From a virus: a stretch of DNA of 26,497 nucleotides. The DNA lies in the IMG/VR virus record IMGVR_UViG_3300034071_001075, positions 1 through 26,497 of that record. One strand, 5' to 3'. The number at the start of each line of letters is the position of its first letter. The first letter of the stretch is position 1. Made by a program: the position numbers and the translations under genes. The notes under the pieces are model-generated. The model ran no database searches. It saw nothing but the letters and a program-made list of their open reading frames with translations, and was not told the origin of the DNA. Shown in pieces: positions 2,926 to 19,902 of the stretch.

Positions 2926-3119
2926 TTGGAGCAGGTGGATTTGGTGGAGGGAAAGCGAAAGTAACTCTCTATACTGATGAAGTTAATAATTTAATCAAAA
3001 AATATAAGAAGATTAAAAAATATATGAGGTCTCCATTGTATCAAGTAAAAACAATGGATGGAACAGAAGAAGTTGTGTCGGAACTTTTAAAAGAATATGA
3101 GGAAAATCCTGAACTTTAA
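2922..3119 (+). CDS. Small hypothetical protein, 65 aa
   Basis: The ATG overlaps the previous stop as ATGA. The N terminus is glycine-rich (GAGGFGGGKAK). A Lys-rich helix (NNLIKKYKKIKKYMRS) follows, and then an acidic C-terminal helix (VVSELLKEYEENPEL). The strong charge separation suggests a small helical hairpin. Its stop overlaps the speD start (TAATG), making five consecutive coupled junctions in this chain. No function can be assigned. Confidence 0.65.
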   Translation: MIGAGGFGGGKAKVTLYTDEVNNLIKKYKKIKKYMRSPLYQVKTMDGTEEVVSELLKEYEENPEL

Positions 3120-11649: not shown

Positions 11650-12096
11650 CTATAAATTCAAATCATCTTCTGTTATTATTTTAAATTCTATCATTCTGTC
11701 TTCACACCATTCTTTTGCTGCTTTCCACTTAGCGCAATTTTTTTCGTATGTGATTGCCTCATTAATCAAAGTCTTTTTCTTTTTATTTCCTGGAACTGGA
11801 GGTTTTGTTTGACGTTTTGGTTTAATTTCTATAAGATATCTTTTTGTATTGCCATTACTTTCCTGAACTTTAATAAAAAAATCTGGAAAATATCTTCTGA
11901 TTTTTCTAGTAGTTGGATCATAATATGGAATGAAAAATTCTTCACTTCCCCATTCCAAAATATTAGGATTTCTATCACAATATCTCATAAACTCAACTTC
12001 CCAAGAACTCCTATAAATTATATTTTTTGAGTCTCCTTTATATTTTTCTGGATTTCTTGGATTAAATCTACCTTGATGATATCTACTTTCTGCCAT
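11650..12096 (-). CDS. 4: Head completion protein gp4 (T4 gp50)
   Basis: This 148-aa leftward gene opens with YHQGRFNPRNPEKYKGD and continues NIIYRSSWEVEFMRYCDRNPNILEWGSEEFFIPY, the diagnostic T4 gp4 (also called gp50) sequence. The PDFFIKV...RYLIEIKPKRQTKPP stretch (about 71-100) carries a D...ExK arrangement, as in PD-(D/E)XK nucleases. In T4 the protein acts after DNA packaging to finish the head for tail joining, possibly by trimming DNA. Length is normal. It is read from a late promoter at 12127-12134 and is the first gene of the leftward set. Confidence 0.93.
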   Translation of the reverse strand: MAESRYHQGRFNPRNPEKYKGDSKNIIYRSSWEVEFMRYCDRNPNILEWGSEEFFIPYYDPTTRKIRRYFPDFFIKVQESNGNTKRYLIEIKPKRQTKPPVPGNKKKKTLINEAITYEKNCAKWKAAKEWCEDRMIEFKIITEDDLNL

Positions 12097-12135: not shown

Positions 12136-12936
12136 ATGGCAGCAACAGCACCAAAACCAAGAAGTATGTCGGAGATTAAGTCTAAATTACTTAATCCTGC
12201 ACTTACTTCTCATTTTGAATGTTACTTTAATCCACCAGGACCAGTTAGAGACTGGGCAAAAAATAGACAACTTGCTGGAGCTGGATCCGCATATGATGCA
12301 GATACAATAAGCATTCATTGTTCAGAAGCATCATTACCTGGATCATCACTTGTAACTCACGAGATAAACAACGATTTTACTGGTGTAACAGAAAGATTGG
12401 CGTATAGAAGATTATATGATGATAGGGCAGATTTTACATTTTATGTTGATCACGATTATAAAGTAATTCAATTTTTTGAAAATTGGTTGGCATATATTTC
12501 AAATGAACAAGTTTCTGGTGGGGTTCTCTCTGCACAGTATTCTTATAGAATGAATTATCCAAAAAACTATAGATCAGAATCTCTATATATTAAAAAATTT
12601 GAAAGAGATTATAATGGAAGATATTTACAATATCAGTTTCTTCAGGCATATCCAATCTCTATAAATTCGATGCCAATATCATATGAATCTTCTAGTTTAT
12701 TAAAATGTACAGTATCATTTACATACACTAGATATTTTGTTACTACACAACAAGGAATGATATCTAATAGTCCTACAGAATATTCTAGTATAGGCAGAGC
12801 AGGTCAAGTTAATGTTCCAGAAGGATCTAGAATTGTTGGATCTACAGATATTAATAATTCTGATAGATTATATGATTATCTGACCCCAGATGGACAGATA
12901 ATACAAGTTATTGATACAATCATACAGAACAGATAA
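12136..12936 (+). CDS. 54: Baseplate tail-tube initiator, gp54-like
   Basis: This 266-aa protein starts MAATAPKPRSMSEIK. It contains the tube-protein fold pattern FECYFNPPGPVRDWAKN (about 29-45), SIHCSEASLPGSSLVTHEINNDFTGVTERLAYRRLYDD and FTFYVDHDYKVIQFFENWLAYI (about 91-118), which recalls gp54 and the tail tube protein gp19. Position next to gp48 and before gp26 favours gp54, which in T4 completes the baseplate and nucleates tube polymerisation. A gp19 paralogue remains possible. No SD is seen. The stop TAA is part of the late promoter for gp26. Confidence 0.72.
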   Translation: MAATAPKPRSMSEIKSKLLNPALTSHFECYFNPPGPVRDWAKNRQLAGAGSAYDADTISIHCSEASLPGSSLVTHEINNDFTGVTERLAYRRLYDDRADFTFYVDHDYKVIQFFENWLAYISNEQVSGGVLSAQYSYRMNYPKNYRSESLYIKKFERDYNGRYLQYQFLQAYPISINSMPISYESSSLLKCTVSFTYTRYFVTTQQGMISNSPTEYSSIGRAGQVNVPEGSRIVGSTDINNSDRLYDYLTPDGQIIQVIDTIIQNR

Positions 12937-12966: not shown

Positions 12967-13683
12967 ATGCCTTTACCTACAATTTCTACACCGACATATG
13001 AGTTGGAACTTCCATCTACTGGAGAAGCAATTCAATACAGACCGTTTCTAGTTAAAGAAGAAAAACTTCTCCTTCTTGCATTAGAAAGTGAGAATACAAA
13101 AGAGATTACAACGGCAATCAAAACGGTAATCAAGAGTTGTATTAAGACAAAAAATATTAAAGTCGAAGCACTTCCTACATTCGATATTGAATACCTCTTC
13201 CTTAACATTAGAGGTAAATCTGTTGGGGAAGATATTGAAGTTAATCTTATTTGCCCAGATGATGATGAAACTGTAGTGCCGACTAAGATTAATATTGATG
13301 ATATTAAAGTTATCAAAAACGAAGATCACGAAAGAAAGATTAAAGTTGATGAAAGTATTGTGATGGAAATGAAGTATCCATCATTAGATCAATTCATCAA
13401 GAGTAATTTTGATTTAAATGATTCAAATGTAGATCAATCATTTGATCTTGTTGCATCTTGTATTGATAAAATCTATACGGACGAAGAGGTATGGGCAGCA
13501 GCAGATGTTACAAAGAAAGAACTTTTAGAGTTTCTTGAGCAAATGAATTCCGCTCAGTTTAAAAAAATTGAGCAGTTTTTTGAGACAATGCCAAAACTTT
13601 CTCACACTGTTAAGATTAAAAATCCAAATACAAAAGTTGAAAGCGAGATCGTCCTGGAGGGTCTGTCAAGTTTTTTCGTATAG
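12967..13683 (+). CDS. 26: Baseplate hub subunit / assembly protein gp26
   Basis: This 238-aa protein begins MPLPTISTPTYELELPSTG and has the T4 baseplate family core YRPFLVKEEKLLLLALESEN (about 22-41), a helix with CIKTKNIKVEALPTFDIEYLFLNIRGKSVGE, and a second helical half ending in LSHTVKIKNPNTKVESEIVLEGLSSFFV. T4 gp26 participates in hub assembly. The gene ends in a -1 frameshift signal at 13656-13704. A slip at T-TTT-TTC (13671-13677) would bypass the TAG at 13681 and join residue 237 to the following ORF, giving a 298-aa fusion. That resembles the G/GT tail-assembly chaperones of siphoviruses. Confidence 0.88.
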   Translation: MPLPTISTPTYELELPSTGEAIQYRPFLVKEEKLLLLALESENTKEITTAIKTVIKSCIKTKNIKVEALPTFDIEYLFLNIRGKSVGEDIEVNLICPDDDETVVPTKINIDDIKVIKNEDHERKIKVDESIVMEMKYPSLDQFIKSNFDLNDSNVDQSFDLVASCIDKIYTDEEVWAAADVTKKELLEFLEQMNSAQFKKIEQFFETMPKLSHTVKIKNPNTKVESEIVLEGLSSFFV

Positions 13684-13704
13684 CAATGGTCCATATGGAC
13701 CTTG
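13656..13704 (+). promoter_or_regulatory. Programmed -1 ribosomal frameshift signal at the end of gene 26
   Basis: Four elements appear in order. An SD-like GGAGGG (13656-13661) sits 9 bases upstream of the canonical slippery heptamer T-TTT-TTC (13671-13677), which is in register with the gene 26 frame (AGT TTT TTC). A six-base spacer, GTATAG, contains the zero-frame stop. A hairpin CAA-T-GGTCC / GGACC-TTG (13684-13692 with 13697-13704) follows, with loop ATAT. The internal SD, slippery site and hairpin are the same parts used by E. coli dnaX. Slippage puts ribosomes into the frame of the 58-codon ORF at 13686. Confidence 0.75.
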
Positions 13705-13862
13705 AAAATTATTATCAGTTAAATTTTTCCTTAATGCAGTATCATAAATATTCATTAACGGAGATTGAAAATATGATGCCTTGGGAAAGAGACATTTATG
13801 TAACTTTACTCAAGAATCACCTTGAAGAAGAGAAAATGAAGCAGCAACAAAATGGCGGATAA
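13686..13862 (+). CDS. 51: gp51-position baseplate hub assembly ORF, 58 codons; probably expressed as a frameshift extension of gp26
   Basis: The frame from ATG 13686 reads MVHMDLENYYQLNFSLMQ, then SLTEIENMMPWERDIYVTLL and a charged C-terminal helix (HLEEEKMKQQQNGG). The MPWERDIY-x-x-L-L motif is characteristic of C-terminal parts of phage tail assembly chaperones. In cyanophage maps a short ORF after gene 26 is usually labelled gp51 (baseplate hub assembly catalyst). It lies in the -1 frame relative to gene 26, three bases after that stop. It has no ribosome-binding site at proper distance, since the nearest GGAGG is 25 bases away. This supports expression by frameshifting. The TAA is directly followed by the next ATG. 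Independent initiation cannot be excluded. Confidence 0.75.
   Translation: MVHMDLENYYQLNFSLMQYHKYSLTEIENMMPWERDIYVTLLKNHLEEEKMKQQQNGG
13743..13750 (+). promoter_or_regulatory. Possible internal late promoter
   Basis: CATAAATA matches NATAAATA inside the gp51-position ORF, about 113 bases before the large gene at 13863. It could give extra transcripts of the hub proteins, but chance matches are expected in AT-rich DNA. Confidence 0.35.
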
Positions 13863-16619
13863 ATGGATTCAAAAGATCTGATTGCTTATAAAAAAGAAAA
13901 GATCCAGGAGGAGATATGGAAAATAGTTCCTCCTGGATTTTCGTATCAAAAAACAAAGAATGTAAGCGACAGTCTCGTTAAATTTTTTGGTGAGGACAAA
14001 GAATTTCTTAGTGAATATGGACTTTTAGTTTCAGGAAAGTATGATACTGCATTTAGTCATTTAAGATTTATTGGATTATCTGTAAAAGATTACAAACAAG
14101 CAAAGAAATTTCCTGCTTTTAAACACGATCCAGAACTTTATAAGCAATTAGAGGAAGGTTGTAAAGAAGTTATAAAATTCTTTACTAGAGTAAAGAAAGT
14201 AATTGCAGATGTCGAAGAAGAGATAGAAATAAGATTAACTTTATTACAAAAAGAAAGACAGAAGGAAAAGCAAAATCAGGAAACAGTAAAGAAACCCAAG
14301 CAACAAAAAGTTTCAGTTGGGGCAGGATCGAGAAATACTCCTCCTCCACCTAAGAAATCTTCCAATGCTTTATCTTTATACGAGGGTGTTAAAGAATCAG
14401 ATTCTGTAAATGAAAGTATTGATGAAAGAATTCTAAGACTTCTTGGTATTGATGATGTATTCGATTTAGATTACGGCACATATCAATCTCTCTTAAAAGC
14501 GAGAATGATTGAGTCTAGAATGATAGGCAAAAAACTTGCCAGTGAAGAAGATGAAATATTGCTTGGAGAATATAAAAGAGTAAGAGGGAAAGTAGGAAGA
14601 TTTAAAGTAAAGAAAAGAAAAATAAAATCTGAAAATATTGGAACTACTGGACCAGTAAAAGTATCTAAAGATAAATTCTTTTTAGTTGGAACTGCTGTAA
14701 TACCACAGAAACAACCAAAAGAAGATACAAAAATAGAAACTGATAATACATCCAATAAAACATCTCTTAATATTATTGATTCATTAAAAAAGATTTTTTC
14801 TATTCTTTCTAATCAATATAAACAATCAGTAAAGAGTTCTGAGTCCGAAAGAAAATCAAAAGAAAGGAAGGGAAGGGAGGAGAAAGAAAATGCGTTAGAA
14901 AGTTCTATACAAAAACTTTCTGGTGCGGTAAAAAAGATATTTACTCCTGTACAAGGAATACTCGATAGAATTATTAAATTTATAACTTTCACTTTACTTG
15001 GGAGATTTGTTGGACAACTATTAAATTGGTTTGGGGATCCTAAAAATAAAAAAAAGGTAGATGCATTAGGTAGATTTTTAAAAGATTGGTGGCCAACTTT
15101 ACTTGCCGCTTTTGTTCTATTTGCAACTCCATTTGGATTATTTGTAAGATCTTTTATTGGCGTTGTTGCCAGATTCATTCCTAAACTTCTTGGACTGATT
15201 CCTAAACTTAGGAATATTATTAAATTAAATAAAACTCCAAAGGGACCAAAGGGAGCAGGGGGATTACTTTCTGTTGTTTCAAACCCAATGTTCTGGTTCC
15301 CTGCTGCAATGGCTGGTGGAGCAGCTTTAGGAAATGAAATTACTGGACAAAGAAAGGCAGCAGGAGTTCAAACAGAAAATAAAGCAAGGGCACAATCTGG
15401 AACTGGATTGGGAGTTCAAGGAGTTGGTGGTGTTGGAGATATGGGTCCAACAACTCCATATGGACTTATTCAAGGTGCGAGTAATGGATCTACTATATTC
15501 AGTGGTATTGTAGATAAAAATACGGGAACAAAAATATCTGGTGCTGGTCAAGATACTCAATATCTTCCCAATATTGCTGGAGGTGGCGTTGCAGTTGCAC
15601 CTGGGGAACTTGTATTAACTAAGGAACAGCAATCTCAAATCGCTGCAGATACTGGAGTTCATCCAGCATCTTATGTTCCAAGTGGAACCAAATTTGTAGA
15701 TACCAGTAAAATACAAACAGCAGCAGGTGGAGGAAAAATTCAAGCTTTCAAAGGTGGTGGTATCATTGGTGGAATTCAAAATGCATTTTCCAACGTTGGA
15801 AATTTCTTAAAAGGCATTACTCCAGGATCTAGACCTGCATCTTCCACATCATCACCAAAACCATCATTACCATTACCAGAATTTAAACTTCCAGAAGTTC
15901 AAGCAGCACTAAGAACAATTAAAGTTGCTGAAGGAACTACAAAATCCAAAAATTCATATGATACATTATTTGGTTTTGGATCGGCACCAATTCGTCAGAT
16001 GACAGTTAAAGAAGTTATCAGTATGCAAAATACAGATAGACTTCCCAAAAGATTTGGTGGCGGAACAGTAGGATTTGGTAAAGATGGTAGCGGAAGGGTA
16101 ATGTCTGCTGCGGCTGGTGCATATCAATTTATGCCTAGCACTCTCCAGCAACTTATGAATATGAAGGTTTTGAAACCAACAGACCTTATGACTCCCGATA
16201 ATCAAGATAAGGGTGCATGGGGATTAATGAAAATGAGAGGTGTGACATTACAATCTCTCAGAACAAGTGGAATGTCCAGATCAAATATGAATTTAATGGC
16301 TCCAGAGTGGGCGTCTTTCCCGAATCTTCAGGGAGTGAGTAATTATAATCAACCAGTAAAATCACCAGAAGTTTTACAAAAAACATATAGTGATACTCTT
16401 AAACAATTAAAACTGGGTCCTCAAAGTCGTGCTACTCCACCTGGACAAAGAGTTACTACGCTTCCAGATATTGTTCGTCATATCCCTTTAAATACAAAAA
16501 GCAAACCAAAAAATTTAAGAAGTCATTCAAGTGATGTTCCAGATTTTGAAGTTTTAGATATGACTAGAAGTGCTATTGATACTAGACAAAAAATAAAAGA
16601 TTCTTTGGGGATAGGATAA
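13863..16619 (+). CDS. Large tail/hub protein with tape-measure-like centre and GH104-type lysozyme domain, 918 aa
   Basis: It starts immediately after the preceding stop. Residues 1-130 form a helical domain, 130-165 a Lys/Glu/Gln-rich linker, and 185-250 a second helical domain. Residues 320-345 are a highly charged stretch. Then comes the segment ILDRIIKFITFTLLGRF (about 366-382) and a hydrophobic region (410-450) as in tape-measure proteins. Gly-rich spacers follow, with GGGVAVAPGELVLTKEQQ. Residues about 680-850 match lambda R-type transglycosylases: KVAEGT with the catalytic-position Glu690, YDTLFGFG, AAGAYQFMPSTLQQL, NQDKGAWGLMKMRG and EWASFPNLQG. It probably cuts peptidoglycan during DNA injection and sits in the tail lumen or hub (gp29 position). 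The shared segment DRI-x-KF...LGRF with the next gene indicates a paralogous pair. Confidence 0.78.
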   Translation: MDSKDLIAYKKEKIQEEIWKIVPPGFSYQKTKNVSDSLVKFFGEDKEFLSEYGLLVSGKYDTAFSHLRFIGLSVKDYKQAKKFPAFKHDPELYKQLEEGCKEVIKFFTRVKKVIADVEEEIEIRLTLLQKERQKEKQNQETVKKPKQQKVSVGAGSRNTPPPPKKSSNALSLYEGVKESDSVNESIDERILRLLGIDDVFDLDYGTYQSLLKARMIESRMIGKKLASEEDEILLGEYKRVRGKVGRFKVKKRKIKSENIGTTGPVKVSKDKFFLVGTAVIPQKQPKEDTKIETDNTSNKTSLNIIDSLKKIFSILSNQYKQSVKSSESERKSKERKGREEKENALESSIQKLSGAVKKIFTPVQGILDRIIKFITFTLLGRFVGQLLNWFGDPKNKKKVDALGRFLKDWWPTLLAAFVLFATPFGLFVRSFIGVVARFIPKLLGLIPKLRNIIKLNKTPKGPKGAGGLLSVVSNPMFWFPAAMAGGAALGNEITGQRKAAGVQTENKARAQSGTGLGVQGVGGVGDMGPTTPYGLIQGASNGSTIFSGIVDKNTGTKISGAGQDTQYLPNIAGGGVAVAPGELVLTKEQQSQIAADTGVHPASYVPSGTKFVDTSKIQTAAGGGKIQAFKGGGIIGGIQNAFSNVGNFLKGITPGSRPASSTSSPKPSLPLPEFKLPEVQAALRTIKVAEGTTKSKNSYDTLFGFGSAPIRQMTVKEVISMQNTDRLPKRFGGGTVGFGKDGSGRVMSAAAGAYQFMPSTLQQLMNMKVLKPTDLMTPDNQDKGAWGLMKMRGVTLQSLRTSGMSRSNMNLMAPEWASFPNLQGVSNYNQPVKSPEVLQKTYSDTLKQLKLGPQSRATPPGQRVTTLPDIVRHIPLNTKSKPKNLRSHSSDVPDFEVLDMTRSAIDTRQKIKDSLGIG

Positions 16620-16620
16620 T

Positions 16621-19600
16621 ATGGCAACTATAAATTCTAAAAAATTACTACCTTCTTCCAAAGCATTTTCTTCAAGATTGAAGAACAAGAAGATTTTAAT
16701 ACCTGTAAGTAATATTCGTGTAAAAAAGAATGCAAAAACATCATCTGAAGATTTAAAAGGGGGATCATCTTCTGGAATATCTTCGGATTCACTTTTAGGA
16801 ATAAAAAATATATTTTTAAAAATAAAAGATGTATTATTAAAAAGTTCAATCTTTCAAAAGAAAGAACAAGATAATAAAAGAAAAGGTCAAGAAAAAGAAG
16901 CAAGGAAGAAAAGAGAATCAAAATTAGAAAAGAAACCAACTAATAAAAATGTAGAATCTGGAATAGCATCTTTACCCAATTTAAGTTTTATCGATAGAAT
17001 TAAAAAGTTTTTATTTTGGACGATTTTAGGAAGATTTTTTTCAGATTTATTTCCAAAGTTAATTGAATTTTCTAAAATAATACTTCCAGTTGTCAATTTT
17101 ATAGCAAATTTTGCTGGAAATATTTTGAAAGGTGTAGTTGATTTTATTGAATGGGGATACATTGCATATGATAAAGTTAGAGATTTAACAAAACAAATTG
17201 GTGGTGAAAGCGCACAAAAAGTATTTGATGATTTTTCAAAGCACTTTAATACTTTTTTAAATCTTGCTTTGATTGCCGCAATGGCAGGATCTGGAATTGG
17301 TGGTGGCGATTCAGGAAAAAAACCAGGAAAACCAGGAAAACCTGGACCATATAGTGGAAGTGGGGGAAATAAACCAACAGCAGCAGATAAAGTTAGGAAT
17401 GCTAAAATTAGAGATATACAAAGAAAATATGGACCAAATGCAAGGAAGATATATGAAAATGCTTTAAATAATGGTAAGAGTTATACGCAAGCTGAAAAAG
17501 CAGTAGAAAGGGGATTTAAAAAAGGAGTTTCTATTAGACCAGGTGCCGATTCATTAGCAGCAAAAACAGCAAAAAGTGGATCTATATTTAACAGAGGTTT
17601 AGGAAAACTTCCTTCAAGACTTGCAACAAAAACTTTTGGTAAAGTAGGAGTTAAAATTGCTGGAAAAACTTTAGGTAGAATTCCAATTATTGGTGGATTA
17701 GTTAATTTCCTATTTGCTTTATGGTCTGGAGAAAAACCAGGAAGAGCAGCAGCAAAAGCAGTAGGTGCTACTATTGGATCTGCACTAGGAACATTTATTC
17801 CTATTCCTATTGCTGGAACAATACTTGGTGGTATTCTTGGAGATATTGTTGGTGGGGCATTGTATGATACTTTGGTAGCGGGAAATAATAAGAAAACTCA
17901 AACAAAAGCAAAAGGTGGAAATATTGGTAAAGTAAAAGTAAAACCTGGAGGAAATAAGAAGAGAACAATAACAATCGCACCAAAAAAACCGAAAAAAATA
18001 GAACCACAAAAAACATCTATTGGTAAAGATATTGGTGGAAAGCGAAAGATAGAAGAAATTTACGGTAAAATTGAATTAGGTAAAAAAAGTCCATTAAGAG
18101 CTTTAGTAAAAACTTCAAATGATTTGAAGCAAATGAAACCACTTAATGGACTACCCGCCACAATGTTTAGTGCGGGAGTTGATATGACTTTAGGGCAAAA
18201 ACCAAATAAAGATTTACCAAATCAAATCGGAAATGCTTTTGGGTCAATAGTCGAGTCATCTATAAATGCAGAATTGTCATCTCTATTTGGACAAATTACA
18301 AAAACATTAACATTAGCAGAAGGAGGATCTATTACTGCACCAAGAAAACTTGATGAAGGTGGAGTGAATAATATTGGTAAGAAAATTGGCAGCAAAATAG
18401 CATCTACTCTCTCTATAGCAATAAATTCTTCAGCAACTAAAATATTTAATAATTTAAATCATGAATTTAATCTTAGACAAAATGGAGATGGAGGTCCAGG
18501 TCCCGATTCTCCTCCTATTGAACCTGGAAATATAAAAGTTAGTTCAGATAGTCCAGATTTTTGGTTATTGACTACTGCTGCACTTTTTGAAAATGGAAAA
18601 CCTAAAGATGGATATCAAGGAGCTGCTGATGTCGCTCAGGCAATTTATAATAGAGTTTCTTTGCCTGGATGGCCTAAGAGTATTAGAGGAGTAATTCTTT
18701 CACCAGGACAATTTACTCCTGTTGGAAGATATGGAACACCTGCTGAATGGTCTAAAATTAATTCCAGAGAATCTGCTATAGCATTTGCCAAAAAATACAA
18801 AGGGTATTCTGGAAATATTGTAGATCAAATTGCAGCATCTTTATTGAATAGTTCTAAACAACAAAATGCAAGAACTTTCGTAGGACCAAGAGATAACTTT
18901 AGGTCTGATTCTTATGAAAAATCAAATGATCATTTAGATGATTCAACAGAAAAAAGTAGATATGGACATACTTTTGGATTTGAACCCAGAGGAGCAAATA
19001 TAGGAAAATTTAAGAAAGGAGAAATTACTGCAGCAGAAGTTAATAAGAGTGTAGTTAAGGGAAGTGTAGAGGATTTATTAACTCGTGATGGAAAACCTAC
19101 TACTGGATCTCTTTCTGTAGTTCTTCCATATGGAAGACCTACATTTACAAGTGGATTTAGAACTAACCATAGACCAGGACATAATGGTATAGATATAGGC
19201 GTTGATGCTAATTCTCCAGTGATAGCAATTCAAGATGGAAAGGTAATTGATATATACAAAAGTTTTGGTGATTGGGGTAATGCTGTAGTAGTCAAACACT
19301 CTGATGGATCACAATACATATATGGACATATTAATGAAAGTGTTTCTACAGGAGCACCTATTAAAAAAGGTCAAGTTATTGGTAAGGTAAAATATTGGCC
19401 TAAAGGTGCAGCAGGGGCAAAATATGATAATAACACACATTTACATTTAGAAAGAAAGGATTCGAGTGGACGATGGGTAAATCCTTCTCCATTTTTAATA
19501 TCAGCATATAATACAACTCAAGCATCTAAACCTACTTCAAATCCTCAAACCCAATCTAAAAATTTTGGAGTTAAGTATCAAAGTGGTCAGTTCCAAAAAC

Positions 19601-19902
19601 TTGGACCATTTGGAATAAATCAAAGTGTTAAAGTTACAGATAAAGATAATACTTATTTAAGAGAAATTTCATCATTTGGGTTAGGTAAAGGGAAAAAAGA
19701 AGGAGAAGTTAAAACAGCTGCTGATGGAAAAAAATATCAGTGGTTTGGAAATAAATGGGTAGAGTATAATTCATCTCTATCTTCATTAAACGCATCTTTA
19801 CCAGTTTCAAATTTAAGTCAATCTGTGGCGCAAATTGGCGATTATGCACCAGGAGATATTTTGATGCAAAGAGAAATAATAATTATTGATAGAACTGCAT
19901 GA
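16621..19902 (+). CDS. Large tail/hub protein with SleB-like hydrolase and M23 peptidase domains, 1093 aa
   Basis: The ATG follows the preceding stop by one base. A Lys/Glu-rich segment (residues 80-105) precedes SFIDRIKKFLFWTILGRF (about 122-139) and a hydrophobic stretch, in the same order as the upstream protein. Residues 210-225 and 350-420 are hydrophobic and Gly/Ala-rich, as in tape-measure proteins, with a short GKPGKPGKPG run near 232-241. Residues about 645-800 resemble SleB-type cell-wall hydrolases (AALFEN...AADVAQAIYNRV...VILSPGQFTPVG). Residues about 835-965 are a complete M23 endopeptidase: H854-N-G-I-D858, YGH (902) and H940-L-H942, the zinc and catalytic positions. The N-terminal half is likely structural (tape measure or hub) and the C-terminal half opens the cell wall at infection. 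Confidence 0.8.
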   Translation: MATINSKKLLPSSKAFSSRLKNKKILIPVSNIRVKKNAKTSSEDLKGGSSSGISSDSLLGIKNIFLKIKDVLLKSSIFQKKEQDNKRKGQEKEARKKRESKLEKKPTNKNVESGIASLPNLSFIDRIKKFLFWTILGRFFSDLFPKLIEFSKIILPVVNFIANFAGNILKGVVDFIEWGYIAYDKVRDLTKQIGGESAQKVFDDFSKHFNTFLNLALIAAMAGSGIGGGDSGKKPGKPGKPGPYSGSGGNKPTAADKVRNAKIRDIQRKYGPNARKIYENALNNGKSYTQAEKAVERGFKKGVSIRPGADSLAAKTAKSGSIFNRGLGKLPSRLATKTFGKVGVKIAGKTLGRIPIIGGLVNFLFALWSGEKPGRAAAKAVGATIGSALGTFIPIPIAGTILGGILGDIVGGALYDTLVAGNNKKTQTKAKGGNIGKVKVKPGGNKKRTITIAPKKPKKIEPQKTSIGKDIGGKRKIEEIYGKIELGKKSPLRALVKTSNDLKQMKPLNGLPATMFSAGVDMTLGQKPNKDLPNQIGNAFGSIVESSINAELSSLFGQITKTLTLAEGGSITAPRKLDEGGVNNIGKKIGSKIASTLSIAINSSATKIFNNLNHEFNLRQNGDGGPGPDSPPIEPGNIKVSSDSPDFWLLTTAALFENGKPKDGYQGAADVAQAIYNRVSLPGWPKSIRGVILSPGQFTPVGRYGTPAEWSKINSRESAIAFAKKYKGYSGNIVDQIAASLLNSSKQQNARTFVGPRDNFRSDSYEKSNDHLDDSTEKSRYGHTFGFEPRGANIGKFKKGEITAAEVNKSVVKGSVEDLLTRDGKPTTGSLSVVLPYGRPTFTSGFRTNHRPGHNGIDIGVDANSPVIAIQDGKVIDIYKSFGDWGNAVVVKHSDGSQYIYGHINESVSTGAPIKKGQVIGKVKYWPKGAAGAKYDNNTHLHLERKDSSGRWVNPSPFLISAYNTTQASKPTSNPQTQSKNFGVKYQSGQFQKLGPFGINQSVKVTDKDNTYLREISSFGLGKGKKEGEVKTAADGKKYQWFGNKWVEYNSSLSSLNASLPVSNLSQSVAQIGDYAPGDILMQREIIIIDRTA

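Follow-up and report, generated by a model that had tools for sequence, protein, structure and literature searches.

A probable -1 frameshift cassette between gene 26 and the gp51-position ORF of cyanophages: sequence evidence for a tail assembly chaperone gene with two products

Background

Gene 26 of the viral DNA analysed here, which comes from a marine T4-like cyanophage (IMG/VR record IMGVR_UViG_3300034071_001075, positions 1 to 26,497; the whole stretch of 26,497 nucleotides is called the window), is followed by a short open reading frame (ORF) in the position of gp51, and the locus raises the question of whether the two encode separate proteins or a single tail assembly chaperone (TAC) with two forms. 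T4 gp51 is an essential protein that does not form part of the particle, and an older review describes gp26 and gp51 as hub assembly chaperones, with gp51 "of unknown function" (PMC3004832). A first-pass annotation of the window proposed that a -1 frameshift fuses gene 26 with the gp51-position ORF, much as in G and GT, and this proposal is strongly supported by 276 distinct junctions and a TAC-like fold. On the sequence evidence, gene 26 and the "gp51" ORF are very probably one gene that would yield two products, TAC-N and TAC-NC, by -1 programmed frameshifting.

Methods

Loci were gathered from IMG/VR, with single diverse proteins as queries, and from annotated phage records. Both domains were found by HMM in stop-to-stop ORFs, and the frames of the two were compared.

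Results

The cassette at the end of gene 26

Gene 26 (12967..13683; this and the other elements of the cassette lie on the plus strand) encodes 238 amino acids, the putative short form TAC-N, and matches PF12322 (T4_baseplate, 2e-76; 256.9 bits in the profile search, against a curated cut-off of 24.5) and phrog_150 (3e-80). Its last codons, CTG GAG GGT CTG TCA AGT TTT TTC GTA TAG, contain an internal Shine-Dalgarno (SD)-like GGAGGG at 13656..13661, 9 nt 5' of a slippery heptamer, T_TTT_TTC, that stands in the gene-26 register at 13671..13677. The 6-nt spacer GTATAG (13678-13683) includes the 0-frame stop TAG (13681..13683), one codon past the heptamer. A putative stimulatory hairpin, CAA-T-GGTCC-ATAT-GGACC-TTG, starts 6 nt after the heptamer and occupies 13684..13704, with 8 bp, one bulged T, an ATAT loop and a folding energy of -9.7 kcal/mol by RNAfold. 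The open stretch of the -1 frame runs from 40 nt before the gene 26 stop to a TAA at 13860-13862. The extension past the shift (13677..13862, 61 amino acids), the candidate TAC-C domain, matches phrog_634 (6e-32) and, at the C-terminus of phrog_150, positions 229-280 in a profile search.

Every element listed in the first-pass annotation was recovered where it had been placed: the GGAGGG, the in-register T-TTT-TTC, the 6-base spacer, the 8-bp hairpin with one bulge and the -1 ORF open through the slippery site. The 298-aa fusion that it predicted was likewise reproduced, as 237 + 61 residues. This long form, TAC-NC (12967..13862), would comprise residues 1-237 in frame 0 and then continue as FF|RIAMVHMD... 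in the -1 frame. Its predicted tryptic peptide across the frameshift junction is VESEIVLEGLSSFFR, and that of the 0-frame C-terminus is VESEIVLEGLSSFFV; the counterpart peptides of relatives end in ...SFFR after a frameshift and in ...SFFV/A in the 0 frame.

Canonical in-register heptamers are common, with 61 found over 6756 positions in the main ORFs of the window, so such a site in a lone AT-rich sequence is only suggestive. Other heptamers near stops in the window (3086, 3747, 7217 and 23704) were rejected; they are without a -1 ORF that is open through the site into a conserved gene. At 3086-3119, where T_TTA_AAA was considered as a frameshift site, the -1 frame is closed through the heptamer. 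That heptamer sits 27 nt before the stop of a 65-aa ORF, which precedes an S-adenosylmethionine decarboxylase gene with a TAATG overlap.

Conservation of frame and heptamer

All 343 loci in which the two domains share a strand had the second in the -1 frame, and none had the unrelated frames that would speak against the first-pass proposal. Eight loci remained. Two are T4 and Aeromonas phage 25, which have a different arrangement. Six had no detected second domain; five of these contigs extend no further than gene 26, ending within it or with its last base, and the sixth (L112) continues for 25 nt beyond the gene-26 match. The heptamer T_TTT_TTN was present at 275 of 276 distinct junctions (N = C in 231, T in 23, A in 20 and G in 1), a count of related sequences rather than independent events, with protein identity to the window ranging from 81% to less than 30%. 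It lies 3 nt from the stop in 223 of the 276. Because both the -1 frame and the heptamer are conserved across relatives, chance is removed as an explanation.

The six-T run might instead be ordinary coding of a conserved Phe-Phe, with a -1 ORF that is decayed or unused. Phe-Phe at the end of gp26 is indeed conserved even in T4 gp26 and in vibriophage proteins, and heptamers are many in AT-rich genomes. At the junction, however, Phe-Phe is spelled only TTT-TTC or TTT-TTT: the spellings TTC-TTT and TTC-TTC account for 196 of the 311 Phe-Phe pairs at other places in these genes and for 0 of 245 at the junction. This codon comparison contradicts chance Phe-Phe coding, and the -1 protein sequence is conserved in every locus; we consider such a reading scarcely credible.

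Selection on the internal SD and the hairpin

Frameshifting is further favoured by the elements on either side of the heptamer. Pairing with the anti-SD, taken over 12 nt in the stretch 6-18 nt before the heptamer, had a mean best energy of -6.5 kcal/mol, compared with -0.65 kcal/mol at random sites in the same genes. Where a Glu-Gly pair is present upstream, its Glu codon starts 14 nt before the heptamer in 232 of 232 cases. The codon is GAG in 172 of these, compared with a GAG share of 31% for other Glu codons; among the 60 GAA cases, 28 read GAA GGG. By these codon counts, codon choice is preserving an internal SD at fixed spacing.

The 45 nt past the heptamer had a mean folding z of -2.03 over 274 junctions when compared with synonymous shuffles of the -1 codons, and a control stretch 66 nt further gave +0.10 under the same null. 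Stems vary by lineage, being longer than the window's in P-SSM2, S-SSM7 and S-PM2, and short and GC-rich in P-HM2. A single hairpin structure common to all relatives was rejected, since stem length and position differ, and the covariation test was for this reason limited to close relatives and to the 5-bp core of their hairpin. In a set of 42 distinct close relatives, each of the five core pairs shows at least one change that affects both of its sides, with 25 such cells against 8.1 in shuffles, and the covariation score exceeded all 500 shuffles and all slid versions. Measured against the synonymous-codon null, the stability of the hairpin is in excess of coding constraint. Beyond close relatives neither element is universal, and some distant relatives have them in weak form or not at all: S-BM3 is without the SD and Astolliot is without the hairpin. 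The conservation that the first-pass annotation had proposed checking in other gene 26 ends is thus borne out for the heptamer, and for the hairpin with its absence from some distant relatives.

Runs of T can promote slippage by RNA polymerase, and a nearly invariant T6 could accordingly be read as a site of transcriptional slippage, at which part of the mRNA pool would be frameshifted. A run of six is short for the polymerase, and the codon register, the SD at fixed spacing and a covarying hairpin 6 nt downstream are features of ribosomal slippage; we regard a transcriptional origin as very improbable. Sequence comparison establishes the cassette, its conservation and selection on its parts, and we hold the cassette to be functional beyond reasonable doubt on these grounds.

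Start of the -1 ORF

The competing view that deserves somewhat more weight, though we still think it improbable, is that the gp51 ORF is a separate protein with its own ATG (e.g. 13686 or 13695), translated by ribosomes that reinitiate once gene 26 has ended. Many relatives have an ATG no more than a few codons from the stop (the first is at codon 3 in 113 of 274 junctions), and every database record that we examined either annotates separate genes or omits the second. The start is annotated directly after the gene-26 stop in S-PM2 and P-SSM2, and the second ORF is omitted in S-BM3, S-PRM1, ACG-2014b and S-MbCM7. Against reinitiation, a number of annotations place the start within the conserved domain (P-HM2, Melnitz), and the position of the first ATG is not conserved, ranging from codon 1 to codon 33 after the shift. 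Anti-SD pairing before it is -0.42 kcal/mol, that is, no SD, which agrees with the first-pass description of an ORF without a ribosome-binding site of its own and gives no sign of the good SD before gene 51 that was named there as contrary evidence. The -1 peptide is conserved from the shift point itself, upstream of any ATG, with Arg following FF in 204 of 274 junctions, and reinitiation would leave the heptamer and the internal SD unexplained.

Exceptions among vibriophages

Four Ackermannviridae-like vibriophages, D509 (L086:4546-4620), K441 (L353:1746-1820), K452 (L351:1740-1815) and VAP7 (L352:1773-1848), are without the T6 heptamer and still have the C-domain in the -1 frame; VAP7 is classed in Ackermannviridae. 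The counterparts of their slippery site are A_CTT_TTC, G_CTT_TTT or C_GTT_TTT, and a TAATG stop-start overlap lies at the junction. These phages possibly use reinitiation, or weak or single-tRNA slippage. In the KVP40-like V09 and D480 both the heptamer and TAATG are present. Bakedbeans has T_TTT_TTC, and its following gene encodes a hub/tail lysozyme, as does that of D509. We suggest tentatively, at somewhat less than even odds, that the T4-like TAC gene has moved between routes to two forms. Cyanophages would rely on a fully stimulated T6 frameshift whose hairpin varies by lineage, and some other phages on the heptamer alone; T4 has the two forms as separate paralogues. In VAP7, K452 and D509/K441, frameshifting may have given way to reinitiation or single-tRNA slippage at a degraded slippery site joined to TAATG.

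Relation to T4 gp26 and gp51 and predicted fold

Profile matches place the end of T4 gp26 (208 aa) where cyanophage TAC-N ends. T4 gp51 (249 aa) has matches to PF12322 (1-201) and to phrog_150 (13-280), the latter along its whole length including the C-domain, which in profile comparison corresponds to the cyanophage -1 ORF. The match of the -1 ORF to the C-terminus of phrog_150 is explained by T4 gp51 having a gp26-like domain and the C-domain in one polypeptide. T4 gp26 and gp51 are paralogues (BLASTP 2e-6), and the two genes are divergently transcribed from opposite strands in T4 (L090:5803-7229) and in Aeromonas phage 25 (L091:2226-3629). These comparisons establish homology of both cyanophage domains to gp26 and gp51, by which T4 gp51 is a natural in-frame homologue of the TAC-NC architecture. 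Short and long proteins sharing an N-domain are thus predicted here at 238 and 298 aa and occur in T4 as separate paralogues.

An AlphaFold model of the window's gp26 reached a pLDDT of 87.5 with a 54-sequence alignment and 34 without one. Its best structural match among 548 solved chains was the HK97 tail assembly chaperone 2ob9 (Z 7.9, just under the comparison tool's "clear" level; rmsd 4.0 over 84 residues), covering gp26 residues 1-86. The next-best matches, ahead of the other chains compared, were 3fgx and YqbN (3klu), which we take to be TAC-like themselves. Foldseek returned no significant match for the model (E 0.74), a sequence-profile search of the PDB with gp26 found no relative and no TAC, and none of the other TAC families showed a sequence-family match to gp26. 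The model therefore supports a TAC-like fold for the gp26 N-domain without being conclusive, as Foldseek alone gives nothing significant.

Neighbouring genes

Directly upstream of the TAC gene lies a tail-tube-like protein of 266 aa (12136..12936, plus strand; PF23849 Phage_TTP_2, 3e-14; phrog_45 tail tube, 3e-32), which is annotated "hypothetical" in cyanophages; relatives have a further phrog_45 protein downstream (L088:6482-7015). The minus strand at 11650-12096 encodes the head closure protein (gp4, phrog_218), which gave a match to PF08722, a TnsA-like endonuclease domain (6e-24).

An ORF of 918 aa (13863..16619, plus strand) occupies the tape-measure position, its start codon abutting the stop of TAC-C. 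The first-pass annotation called this product tape-measure-like. The description is partly supported: the phiM7 counterpart matches tape-measure PHROGs at ~2e-5 (that of Melnitz matches the phiM7 family), but a profile search with the window's own ORF gave no direct tape-measure family match, returning instead phrog_35029, of unknown function, and the endolysin-like phrog_90. It has a central hydrophobic stretch near residue 415. Two large ORFs, of 918 and 1093 aa, fill 13863-19902, both with a pI of ~10 and hydrophobic stretches; the 1093-aa ORF has Hydrolase_2 and M23 peptidase domains and weak matches to tape-measure PHROGs. Either of the two may be the tape measure. The region after the TAC gene is split variously in cyanophages (529 + 516 aa in P-SSM2, 742 aa in Melnitz).

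Discussion

We propose that most ribosomes would terminate at the TAG at 13681 and release TAC-N of 238 aa. Some would pause on the heptamer T_TTT_TTC, flanked by the internal SD upstream and the hairpin downstream. There the Phe tRNAs of the P and A sites could slip back by one base to pair with TTT TTT, and translation would go on in the -1 frame to give a minor TAC-NC of 298 aa. On the model of lambda G/GT, the role of TAC-N would be to coat the tape measure protein and that of the TAC-NC C-domain to recruit tail-tube subunits, so that the frameshift would set the ratio needed for tail assembly. We infer slippage in the cell, and its rate, from the cassette, and a division of labour between the two forms from the analogy.

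The genes annotated "baseplate hub subunit" and "baseplate hub assembly catalyst" in hundreds of cyanophage genomes would on this evidence be one frameshifted TAC gene, and the latter name is misleading for a TAC-NC, given that gp51 has a full gp26-like domain plus the C-domain. The shift is testable in existing cyanophage proteomes.

In lambda, two overlapping ORFs lie between the tail tube and tape measure genes, with a -1 shift close to the end of the first ORF and a minor long form. The likeness of the cyanophage locus lies in its two overlapping ORFs, here between a tail-tube-like gene and a candidate tape measure gene, in the predicted -1 shift at the end of the first and in the predicted minor long form. 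The lambda arrangement is one that Xu, Hendrix and Duda reportedly described in 2004 as a conserved tail frameshift. The cyanophage locus differs in its T_TTT_TTC with SD and hairpin, in a second domain of only ~60 aa, and in an N-protein with an extra C-terminal half beyond the TAC-like domain. In E. coli dnaX, the cassette consists of an SD ~10 nt upstream, an in-register heptamer and a hairpin 5-9 nt downstream. The same three elements are found here, whereas the dnaX heptamer is A_AAA_AAG and its shift yields the shorter product.

In T4, as in the cyanophage, PF12322 is common to both proteins, and the genes differ in being separate and divergent; the short and long forms of Aeromonas phage 25 are separate, divergent paralogous genes as in T4. 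T4 gp51 holds a whole gp26-like domain together with the C-domain, and T4 therefore has as two genes what the cyanophage has as one; with this gp51 encoded on the opposite strand from gene 26, it needs no frameshift. T4 genes 26 and 51 can thus be read as a split version of the cyanophage TAC gene. In 2022 Vladimirov and colleagues reportedly described frameshifting as a conserved feature of several T4-like groups, with T4 relying on genes 26 and 51. The first-pass recasting of gp26 and gp51 as a frameshift chaperone pair accordingly agrees with the cyanophage junctions, does not extend to T4 itself, and is not new.

The TAC locus of Vandenendeviridae/Andersonviridae (Pakpunavirus Adele) also has a poly-T slippery motif at the end of TAC-N, a -1 frame open in every genome and a "hypothetical" second ORF, and differs in its motif, GTTTTT, and in belonging to other phage families (PMC12846349). 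TAC genes of T4-like phages were identified by Vladimirov, Gautam and Davidson (Virology 2022;566:9-15, doi 10.1016/j.virol.2021.11.003). In passages citing that work, it is credited with poly-T slippery signals in the TAC-N genes of T4-like phages (PMC12846349) and with T4-like phages that have one short and one long TAC gene and no frameshifting (PMC10885494). As far as the accessible parts of these sources go, the family (gp26/gp51) and the TAC-N/TAC-NC proposal are the same as ours, with a frameshift or two genes depending on the group, and the frameshifted TAC arrangement of T4-like phages was in substance already known and proposed in print in 2022. To it the present analysis adds confirmation, quantification (276 distinct junctions, covariation and a synonymous-codon null) and one exception lineage.
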